NCBI GenBank assembly: GCA_025935195.1
Contig: JAICVS010000003.1
Location: 1-64,000 of the forward strand
DNA from: Ktedonobacterales bacterium
GTDB taxonomy: Bacteria > Chloroflexota > Ktedonobacteria > Ktedonobacterales > JADMIN01
Direction of reading: 5' to 3'
DNA: 64,000 nucleotides
Numbering within the stretch: position 1 is the first letter of the stretch; the number at the start of each line of letters is the position of its first letter. The translations under genes were made by a program, and so were the position numbers. Positions 37,414 through 61,313 of this stretch are shown piece after piece. Under the pieces are notes generated by a model. It saw only the letters and a program-made list of their open reading frames with translations, was not told the DNA's origin and did not search any database.

Positions 37414-37484
37414 TCCGGGATCGTCTAGTGGTAGGACGACTGACTCTGGATCAGTTAACCGTGGTTCGAATCCACGTCCCGGAG
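37414..37484 (+). tRNA. tRNA-Gln (anticodon CTG)
   Basis: TCCGGGA acceptor pairs with TCCCGGA; anticodon loop TCTGGAT on stem CTGAC/(G)TCAG-like; T-arm GTGGTTCGAATCCAC; CCA not encoded. Confidence 0.96.
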
Positions 37485-37587
37485 CCGAACATCATCACGG
37501 CGTGGGAGCTGGGTATCACCTGGCTCCCATTTTTTTGTCGGATGGGATGTGCCGGATGCGGCAAGGTTGTTGTCGCTCGCAAGCTTT

Positions 37588-39040: not shown

Positions 39041-39217
39041 TATCGAATTTCATCAAGCGCGAGCGGACTGAGCGGACTTGCAGCGCATCCGCGCTTGCAC
39101 TTTGACAGGTGGTCTGGCATAATGCAAACGTGCATGAGGAAGCTTCCATTCCATGTAGTAGTTCCCACCGGCTTACCTTGGCCGTTGGCTATCGTTGCTT
39201 AAAGCGTAGGGACTGGC

Positions 39218-39586
39218 ATGAGGATAATGCACTTTCGCAAGGGCAAGCAAGGCGAACCGAATACTGAAGCGCGGCCACCTCAGAATCTAGAACCCAGTCC
39301 ACCCCCTGAGACTGCCTTCGCTGTTCAAAGCAGGGCGGAGAAACTCCGTGAACTGGCACGCCTTCAACAGGATGTTGCTATGAGGTTGCAGCAAACGGCA
39401 AGCAAAGAACATGATATTGCGAATCTGTGCGAAGCTATTAGTGAGCTTGACCTGAGGGACCAAGTCCGGGAGATGGAGATGGAGGTGCTAGGGCTGTTGA
39501 ATCGTGCCCTTAAAGTGGAGAGGATGGCTCTGGAGAGAGTGGCCCAAACACTTGAGGAAGAGAAGCTTGCGCTGCAAGTGGGCTAA
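39218..39586 (+). CDS. Small coiled-coil hypothetical protein
   Basis: 122 aa; heptad-like LRELARLQQDVAMRLQQTASKEHDIANLCEAISELDLRDQVREMEMEVLGLLNRALKVERMALERVAQTLEEEKLAL. Confidence 0.7.
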   Translation: MRIMHFRKGKQGEPNTEARPPQNLEPSPPPETAFAVQSRAEKLRELARLQQDVAMRLQQTASKEHDIANLCEAISELDLRDQVREMEMEVLGLLNRALKVERMALERVAQTLEEEKLALQVG

Positions 39587-39671
39587 CCTGTCTTCACGCT
39601 GTGCAGCTTGGAGGCATGATAGATTTCGCGGAAGGCCTGAACCGTAGATTTGGGGGAGGAGAGATTGCATA

Positions 39672-40004
39672 ATGGCAGATATCGGTGATGTGCGGTCAAA
39701 GGCACTGATAAAGGCCCGCCAGCTTCAGAATGATGCGAACCTGATCGCTCAGAATGAGCGAGAGGAAGAGGCTCTGCTAGGCAAGCTTGAGGAGATTGCT
39801 GACCAATACCACGATTTGCTGGGAATGTGGGAGGGAGCAGGAGACACACAAATGGCCGAGCAAGTTCGAAAAGAAGAAGAACGAATGAGGCAGTTGATCA
39901 CTCGGCTTACGGAACTGGCAGATCGAACAGCGGAAGAGGCGAAGAAGGTTCTTGGCGAGGTTAAGGATGTGCTGAGAAATGTCAACGACAGGCCACTTCA
40001 GTGA
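39672..40004 (+). CDS. Small coiled-coil hypothetical protein
   Basis: 110 aa; KARQLQNDANLIAQNEREEEALLGKLEEIADQYHDLL...VRKEEERMRQLITRLTELADRTAEEAKKVLGEVKDVL; SD gggaggagag. Confidence 0.75.
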   Translation: MADIGDVRSKALIKARQLQNDANLIAQNEREEEALLGKLEEIADQYHDLLGMWEGAGDTQMAEQVRKEEERMRQLITRLTELADRTAEEAKKVLGEVKDVLRNVNDRPLQ

Positions 40005-40185
40005 CTGAAATGCTGGCCATCGACATGCCCAGTATTGCAATTGCCTGCGTGACCGTCAGCGATCAACAGGAAATGCCGCACGTCCTATGCAAACGTGAGG
40101 TGGGATGACGTCGGACTTCGCGCCATCAGCAACTTATGTACATCCTTGGGGGAGATAGTATTAGCTGCGGTCGGGAGGGGATGCC

Positions 40186-41715
40186 ATGGATGCTTCTGCA
40201 GTGGCTCGTAAACGGGCATTACTTAGCACAGCGTATTTTGGCGATCCTACCGCCGAATTTGACCAAGCACTACATGCTACATTTGTAGAGACCGACATCT
40301 GGGCAGGCGTGATCAAGGATCAAGTGAATATTGTACTAGGGGCAAAGGGCACGGGGAAGAGCGCGATGTATTCCCTCCTCTTTGTCAAGCGCAGGGAATT
40401 GCGCAAGCGTCGGATCGTCGTCGTGGGTGCCGAAAGCCTGGAGGACGATCCCATATTCGTCAGCTTATCCATCAATCCAACTCTAAGCGAAGAGCAGTTT
40501 GCCACCCTGTGGAAACTGTATTTCCTTGCCCTTGTTGGAGGCGCACTCAGGTCACTGAGGATACGCGACGCCTCGGCACGTCGGGTCATCTCTGTACTCG
40601 AAGGAGAGAGTTTGCTACCACGTGCGGATGGATCGCTATTCGTGAGGACATTCAACGAGGCGCTGCGCTATGTCAACGCAGAACTAGAGGGGGAGTTCGG
40701 CGTTTCCGGGCCATCGCCTGTGCAGGTAAGAGTCAGCGGTAGAATCGTCTTGCACGAGCCCACAGCCGAGGAGCGACAGCAGGGCAAGATCGGGCTCAAT
40801 GAACTGCTTACGCTCGTCGGAAAGTCTCTCACGAAAGCGAAACTAGCTGTTTGGCTACTCGTTGATAGGCTCGACATGGCGTTTCCATCGGATGAAGCCC
40901 TGGAAATCCGTGCACTCAGAGCACTCTTCCGAGCGTACATATCGCTGGGGTTGCCAGCGTACGGGTTCAAAATCAAACTCTTCGTGCGTGCAGATACATG
41001 GGATCGTCTTACTAGGAACCTTGATGCAGGGGGCAGGTTTCCTGGCGCCAACATGCTCAACGGCACTGAGATAAGATGGAGCAGCAATGCTCTGTTGAAT
41101 CTAGTAGTCCGCCGTATCCTACACAATGAGCACCTCTGCAGGCATTACGGGGTCAAAGCAGACCATGTTCGGGCGGACTACCGACAACAAGAGGCACTAT
41201 TCGCTCGCGTGTTTCCGGAACATGTCGAGACGGATGCCGGCATAGTGAAGACCTTTGAGTGGATCCTACAACAGATTCGAGACGGTACAGGCAATGTAGC
41301 TCCGCGAGAACTCATCCTCATGTTGTCTTATGCACGCGAGGCCCAGCTGCAACGCCTAGACCTTGGGATTGTCGAGAGCGTCGACGAGCATCTGTTCGAT
41401 CAAAATGCATTGAAGATAGCTGCCGCTAAAGTGTCGGATTTCCGCTTGTATCGCACGCTCTTCACTGAGTATCCATACATACGCTCGGCAGTCGACGCCT
41501 TACGCGGTGGAGAAGCCTCGTACACAGTAGAGCGGCTGGAGCGGCTATGGCGCGATTTGCCATGGCAGGTTATGACAATGAACGACACTCACCAACTGGT
41601 GGATCGACTTACAGCGCTCGGCTTCTTTGAAGTGAAGTCGGCAGGGAATGTAACCATGTACCACGTCCCACCGATCTACCAGCACGCATTGGCTTTGTTC
41701 GAGCAGCATAGATGA
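40186..41715 (+). CDS. P-loop ATPase resembling the Sll1717 family
   Basis: 509 aa; YFGDPTAEFDQALHATFVETDIWAGVIKDQVNIVLGAKGTGKSAMYSLLF (Walker A GAKGTGKS), putative Walker B KLAVWLLVDRLD; SD gggaggggatgcc. Confidence 0.8.
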   Translation: MDASAVARKRALLSTAYFGDPTAEFDQALHATFVETDIWAGVIKDQVNIVLGAKGTGKSAMYSLLFVKRRELRKRRIVVVGAESLEDDPIFVSLSINPTLSEEQFATLWKLYFLALVGGALRSLRIRDASARRVISVLEGESLLPRADGSLFVRTFNEALRYVNAELEGEFGVSGPSPVQVRVSGRIVLHEPTAEERQQGKIGLNELLTLVGKSLTKAKLAVWLLVDRLDMAFPSDEALEIRALRALFRAYISLGLPAYGFKIKLFVRADTWDRLTRNLDAGGRFPGANMLNGTEIRWSSNALLNLVVRRILHNEHLCRHYGVKADHVRADYRQQEALFARVFPEHVETDAGIVKTFEWILQQIRDGTGNVAPRELILMLSYAREAQLQRLDLGIVESVDEHLFDQNALKIAAAKVSDFRLYRTLFTEYPYIRSAVDALRGGEASYTVERLERLWRDLPWQVMTMNDTHQLVDRLTALGFFEVKSAGNVTMYHVPPIYQHALALFEQHR

Positions 41716-41965
41716 GATTGATGTCGGAACATTCAGGGTGAGGCTAAGTGGCAAGTCGTCGACGATCCACTGGCTGTAAGTTCTACTCGCTGCCAAATCT
41801 AACCGGATTCTCAATGGCTACTGCCGCCTGGGTTGCGTCTCGGATACATGCTTAGGGGATCGCACGCTTGCGTCGCGGGCATTCCTTGGCGCAACATAGA
41901 ACATTCAAGCTCGCTCGCGCGCTCGTTTGAGCCACTGCAGGCTGTATGATTGATTCGGTGCGTCC

Positions 41966-60755: not shown

Positions 60756-61313
60756 ATGGATGCAATTGACCAAGTGTGGCAGCGAATTGAAGCCGGCTTG
60801 CGCCTACATGCGTCTTCGACCGGGCCGCAACTCGCTCCCGGAGCCTCCGAGCGAGCGATTGAACAACTGGAAGGTGTGCTGGAGGTCACCCTGCCCGAGG
60901 ACTTCCGAGCATCGTATCGCCTGCACGATGGGGGCTTTACGATGCAACTGGTCACCGACATGGAGATACTGCCACTCGAGGACATAGCCAAGACTTGGCG
61001 AATTCTGGAGGAGTTACCGCACGACGATGAGTGGGCACGGCAGCCCCCCCACTATTTCACGGAGGAGGTCGTGCGCTCTGGCTGGAAGACTGGTCCTATC
61101 CAGCCCGTCTGGTGGCACCGCCGCTGGGTTCCCTTCGGCTCCGATAGCGCAGGCAATCTTACGTGTCTAGATCTGGCCCCGGCATTGGATGGTACGATGG
61201 GGCAGATCATTGATTGGGATCATGAGTGTGGCCCTTCGCGTATGCTCTTCCCCGATTTTGGGCATTTCCTCGCCGCCTTGGCAGATCAGGTAGAGCGCGG
61301 CACCAACAAGTAG
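60756..61313 (+). CDS. SMI1/KNR4 family protein
   Basis: APGASERAIEQLEGVLEVTLPEDFRASYRLHDGGFTM...WVPFGSDSAGNLTCLDLAPALDGTMGQIIDWDHECGPSRMLFPDFGHFLAALADQVERG. Confidence 0.9.
   Translation: MDAIDQVWQRIEAGLRLHASSTGPQLAPGASERAIEQLEGVLEVTLPEDFRASYRLHDGGFTMQLVTDMEILPLEDIAKTWRILEELPHDDEWARQPPHYFTEEVVRSGWKTGPIQPVWWHRRWVPFGSDSAGNLTCLDLAPALDGTMGQIIDWDHECGPSRMLFPDFGHFLAALADQVERGTNK

Follow-up and report, generated by a model that had tools for sequence, protein, structure and literature searches.

A window of 64,000 nucleotides (the whole stretch of DNA analysed here) contains a short A+T-rich islet, and the question it raises is whether the three genes in the islet form one functional unit or only lie side by side. 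A sequence-only reading had proposed a horizontally acquired cassette with a possible role in defence or regulation, in which two small helical proteins would act as partners or sensors of an Sll1717-like P-loop ATPase.

Composition and surroundings of the islet

The islet (39050..41850, no strand assigned) has about 53% GC in a window of 68% GC, and sliding GC values of 0.52-0.56 over about 39,050-41,850 compare with 0.63-0.76 on either side. GC enters the islet from values of 0.65-0.73 and climbs back beyond it. No other islet of this kind occurs in the 64-kb window, where every other 500-bp window has at least 0.57 GC. Three ORFs of 122, 110 and 509 aa, all on the + strand and of the sizes first reported, occupy it at 39218-39586 (s1), 39672-40004 (s2) and 40186-41715 (the ATPase gene). 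The abrupt drop in composition and codon usage described in the sequence-only reading was also recovered, with GC3 values of 0.53-0.58 in all three genes vs. 0.87-0.96 in four flanking genes. The discontinuity is real, and a chance effect of composition can be discounted. The claim that all three genes follow good SD sequences stood in part, as those of s2 and the ATPase gene looked good by eye while that of s1 was weak.

The flanking genes are ordinary (an acyltransferase, an AI-2E transporter and a sodium:solute symporter, the further ones being judged by eye). No integrase or IS was found within or adjoining the islet, and no direct repeat linked the tRNA-Gln gene (37414-37486) to its right edge. 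The AI-2E orthologues in the same bacterial family, compared in search of an empty site by synteny, sit in unrelated gene orders. An Rfam scan matched this tRNA alone, and a sigma-70 promoter scan returned no consensus site. The best explanation of the islet as a whole, to which we give an even chance, is that one small foreign fragment, or a pair of them, sits inside an otherwise housekeeping region. Elsewhere in the window, a 185-aa ORF at 60756-61313 has a GC3 of 0.66, below that of its surroundings, and resembles SMI1/KNR4 proteins by eye.

The ATPase and its relatives

The third gene (40186..41715, +) encodes a 509-aa P-loop ATPase assigned to the Sll1717 family and to PHROG 14159 on the basis of profile matches. 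Membership of the Sll1717 family, as proposed in the sequence-only reading, was borne out by NCBIfam model NF047389 (P-loop ATPase, Sll1717 family): the protein matched model positions 1-422 of 454 and scored 165.8 bits, where the cut-off is 75. The match to PHROG 14159, a phage family of unknown function, extends over the full length of the protein (residues 17-503, E=1.7e-71); two other members of the clade score about 1e-117 against the same profile and an HEPN/ParA-linked Sll1717 protein only 5e-12. The two nucleotide-binding motifs already noted in the sequence were confirmed, namely the Walker A GAKGTGKS (residues 52-59; 40339..40362, +) and, in the Walker B region, WLLVDRLD (residues 223-230; 40852..40875, +). 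Both are conserved across 14 aligned sequences including that of the window, and at least 13 of the 14 have an identical DRLD. The family is common in Chloroflexota, where 54 of 301 genomes gave a match at E<=0.001 and 23 exceeded the cut-off, whereas the remaining sampled genomes from the source organism's bacterial family gave no match.

Relatives of the ATPase were missed by single-sequence scans of genomes and viral contigs and were recovered by alignment queries. The set (L046 (=L083), L082, L084, L085, L086 and L140-L148) comprises 14 relatives (31-38% identity) from five phyla and nine viral or prophage contigs. The full-length chromosomal ones come from a Chloroflexota MAG (38% identity to the window protein), Geothrix, Paenibacillus psychroresistens, a Nevskia MAG and a Spartobacteria MAG, and reach four phyla besides Chloroflexota. 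Searches by tblastn found no relatives in GenBank phage records and only distant ones on GenBank plasmids. The tree was built from 14 sequences including the window protein and leaving out the Spartobacteria copy (L086), which is split by an apparent frameshift; these sequences form one group (support 95/96) within the wider set of Sll1717 proteins. While the other clade members mostly share 39-57% identity with each other, the window protein shares 31-37% with all of them, and it deviates in 17 of the 32 alignment columns that have exactly one deviant sequence, the Walker motifs being kept. By sequence, the window ATPase is the most divergent member compared of a known but uncharacterised family.

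The gene settings of these relatives bear on both mobility and partnership. All 14 are solo: inspection by eye showed no neighbour that recurs, and small proteins of the s1/s2 type are lacking throughout. A+T content was compared with that of the flanks for 13 relatives and was higher in 12, by up to 22 points. In the viral and prophage contigs the gene adjoins a tyrosine-type integrase (L140) or the terminase small and large subunits (L148), lies between a neck/tail-completion gene and a head protease in a contig that is phage Mu-like by eye (L142; gene GC 0.385 vs. 0.60 in the flanks), or adjoins portal and terminase genes in a P2-like phage (L143, with L144 a near-identical sister by eye). 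In P2-like phages the stretch bounded by gpA and the portal gene gpQ, which is cos-proximal, is an established hotspot for anti-phage genes (PMC9122126). Various kinds of prophage carry members of the PHROG 14159-type clade as lone cargo, mostly A+T-richer than its surroundings, and the horizontal mobility first proposed is supported by this carriage in prophages and by the scatter of relatives over phyla.

As descriptive counts, defence genes stand near three of the five chromosomal relatives and the gene is cargo in the nine viral or prophage contigs. At L084 the chromosomal neighbours include type I HsdR/HsdS together with an MvaI/BcnI-type nuclease, at L085 they include Dsr1 and a SAVED/HNH-type effector, and at L086:3154-7474 an LRR-Roc-COR-TIR gene lies 70 bp upstream of the frameshift-split ATPase. 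A defence-type setting was observed for several relatives, through restriction, Dsr1 and TIR genes, but not for the Geothrix (L082) and Chloroflexota MAG (L046) copies, which, like that of the window, lie among ordinary genes outside defence islands. Prophage cargo may also serve other ends, such as lysogenic conversion, replication or partition, and these other uses count against a defence reading.

The small proteins

The two upstream genes encode a 122-aa helical protein of no known family (s1; 39218..39586, +) and its paralogue, a 110-aa predicted helical hairpin (s2; 39672..40004, +) with helices at residues 4-56 and 59-106 and the motif WEGAGD at the turn. The two proteins match each other (BLASTP E=7e-4), and both match a single ORF (L008:373-786) at 34-36% identity (E=1.4e-10) in genome G002, which belongs to the source's bacterial family; judged by eye, a tRNA-like sequence is close to this ORF. 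The presence of a protein-level relative in another genome supports s1 and s2 as genes, and they also show the coding pattern GC1>GC3>GC2. A three-member profile (s1, s2 and the L008 ORF) found nothing further in 400 Chloroflexota genomes, and no relatives were found in viral contigs or in GenBank phage and plasmid records.

As a tandem pair of roughly 100-aa helical proteins, with a WxG turn in s2, s1 and s2 could be Esx-like (WXG100) proteins that a type VII secretion system exports. The predicted hairpin of s2 (AlphaFold2, pLDDT 84) has the WXG100/EsxA-like form, the protein matches TIGR03930 with E=4.5e-6, and EsxA is the best PDB profile match, although a non-significant one (E=0.23). The TIGR03930 score (26.8 bits) nonetheless falls below the curated cut-off of 44.85, and weak scores may arise from any long helical hairpin. 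Neither s1 nor the L008 ORF matches TIGR03930, and Foldseek with the s2 model returned nothing below E=0.1. Moreover, an EssC-type ATPase (TIGR03928) was not found in the source genome (G000), a draft in 277 contigs whose 88% completeness limits such absences, though related genomes carry one. We regard this alternative as very unlikely. Several members of the same order have EssC-type ATPases together with WXG100 proteins (L136, L137, L138 and L139), and their sequences suggest that type VII-like secretion may exist in relatives of the source organism. Given the narrow reach of the profile, the WXG100 score below cut-off and the lack of an EssC-type ATPase, we read s1 and s2 as diverged paralogues, a lineage-specific pair seen only in the source's bacterial family.

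Whether this pair serves the ATPase is the point on which the proposed module turns. If it does, s1 and s2 would be helical-hairpin proteins that sense invasion and control the ATPase, as a lineage-specific elaboration of an enzyme that is normally solo. The shared strand and the uniformly low GC3 argue for this, low GC in all three genes being compatible with joint acquisition, and the far greater divergence of the window ATPase within its clade might follow from the gain of partners. The s1/s2 profile, however, had no match in any of the ATPase loci examined, so that the small proteins accompany the ATPase in none of these. Their only relative, a sample of one, lies in a genome that gave no Sll1717 match (G002, about 84% complete), and a gap of 181 bp separates s2 from the ATPase gene. 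The partner or sensor role claimed for the small proteins is not supported by these comparisons, and we now consider it distinctly unlikely. Judged by the refuting condition given with the sequence-only reading, a lack of co-occurrence elsewhere, the module fails on this sample. A toxin-antitoxin arrangement, with s1 and/or s2 restraining a toxic ATPase, would suit the gene order, in which small genes come before a larger same-strand gene within a mobile-type islet; the 14 relatives do without s1 and s2, so the family in general needs no such antitoxins, and we hold this reading to be extremely improbable. Most likely, the two small genes are a separate acquisition or a lineage-specific duplicate that the ATPase does not need. 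On balance, a single-gene ATPase that happens to lie beside two unrelated small genes is better supported than a module of three parts.

Possible function and comparison with known systems

The predicted fold offers some indication of what the ATPase may do. An AlphaFold2 model built from six sequences reached a pLDDT of 78 and a pTM of 0.79, residues 148-189 being unreliable. Foldseek matched it to Cdc6/Orc1, archaeal STAND-like ATPases (2qen/2fna), Apaf-1/CED-4 and BrxC with E-values from 1e-6 to 1e-3, the best matches being Cdc6/Orc1 with a winged helix; TM-scores against solved structures were only about 0.2-0.4 over the whole chain, and a sequence-profile search found no relative of solved structure. 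A C-terminal winged-helix-like region (approximately residues 440-495; 41503..41670, +) was delimited from the secondary structure of the model, Foldseek and a weak match to Pfam HTH_22 (E=0.028). These fold matches point to a predicted ORC/Cdc6/STAND-type AAA+ switch with a C-terminal winged helix.

Such a fold would also suit an accessory factor that serves mobile elements in replication, partition or regulation, i.e., an ORC-like initiator or DNA-bound regulator with no part in defence, and the existence of family members fused to ParA-like domains (L056 and L057) is in line with this. Against it, the ATPase is a single cargo gene at varying positions in different phage types, chromosomal copies lie near restriction, Dsr1 and TIR genes, and elsewhere in the Sll1717 family there are links to HEPN-like and TIR-like domains. 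This explanation appears unlikely to us.

We return to an anti-phage role, which the cargo and neighbour settings suggest for the ATPase. The core of the islet would then be one gene, a solo, mobile and probably anti-phage Sll1717 ATPase of the PHROG 14159 clade, with s1 and s2 separate from it, and we see the chances of this reading as evenly balanced. The ATPase would protect its carrier, be it a cell or a prophage, from rival phages or other mobile DNA. Under the mechanism that we consider likeliest, proposed from the fold alone, the ORC/STAND-type switch would bind ATP, the winged-helix or C-terminal region would recognise invading DNA or a phage protein, and upon recognition the ATPase would oligomerise and directly block the replication or packaging of the invader. 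It has neither a fused effector nor a recurrent neighbouring one. More tentatively, the solo Sll1717 clade represented by PHROG 14159 may constitute an undescribed single-gene immune system, spread by prophages and present in at least five phyla, whose ORC-like AAA+ protein would target invading DNA with no nuclease or toxin partner; we consider this possible, at somewhat less than an even chance. A literature search within one library returned no paper on Sll1717 or PDC-M28, and no activity assay for any member of the PHROG 14159 clade. The analysis connects PHROG 14159 with the Sll1717 ATPases and with a predicted ORC/STAND-type fold, and it adds counterparts in chromosomes and a setting of defence type; the clade of the window ATPase becomes a testable single-gene candidate, and a tempting but unsupported three-gene module can be struck off.

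The wider Sll1717 family shows other arrangements. Other Chloroflexota members carry N-terminal deoxyribosyltransferase/TIR-like, HTH or ParA-like domains. Four ATPases of 800-920 aa (L040, L041, L042 and L047) have a long N-terminal part that in some is weakly nucleoside deoxyribosyltransferase- or TIR-like, and on this sequence likeness they are candidate ATPase-effector fusions. In a further A+T-rich islet (L043:4985-7859) the gene after an Sll1717 ATPase encodes a CAP12/Pycsar TIR domain (PF10137, E=3e-38), and at L039:2898-6683 the gene immediately upstream of an Sll1717 ATPase encodes a 559-aa OLD/GajA/AriA-like ATPase, both genes being A+T-rich.

Among known systems, PADLOC's predicted candidate PDC-M28 consists, as deduced here, of an HEPN-like A, a ParA-like B and an Sll1717-type ATPase C. 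Two genomes of the same order as the source (G028 and G037; L056 and L057) have an HEPN-like gene followed by a ParA-like/Sll1717 fusion, which keeps the sequence A, B, C while joining the last two in one polypeptide. In PADLOC the window ATPase matched subunit C of PDC-M28 only (E=1.4e-13, residues 206-461). No HEPN-type A matched s1 or s2, the next flanking genes being the acyltransferase and the AI-2E transporter, and no ParA-like B was found among the three islet proteins; an assignment of the locus to PDC-M28 was rejected, since both components are absent. With NF047389 the window ATPase shares the domain span, and while that family also includes fusions to TIR-like/deoxyribosyltransferase-like, HTH and ParA domains, the window clade is unfused. 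With ORC/Cdc6 and STAND ATPases (Apaf-1, CED-4, archaeal 2qen/2fna and BrxC) it shares a predicted AAA+ core and C-terminal winged helix, but it bears no significant sequence relation to the solved members and has no repeat sensor or effector domain. To PHROG 14159 it is alike by its full-length match; the other members of that family are solo cargo in prophage-type contigs, whereas the window copy is chromosomal, lies among housekeeping genes and is the most divergent of the 14 compared.
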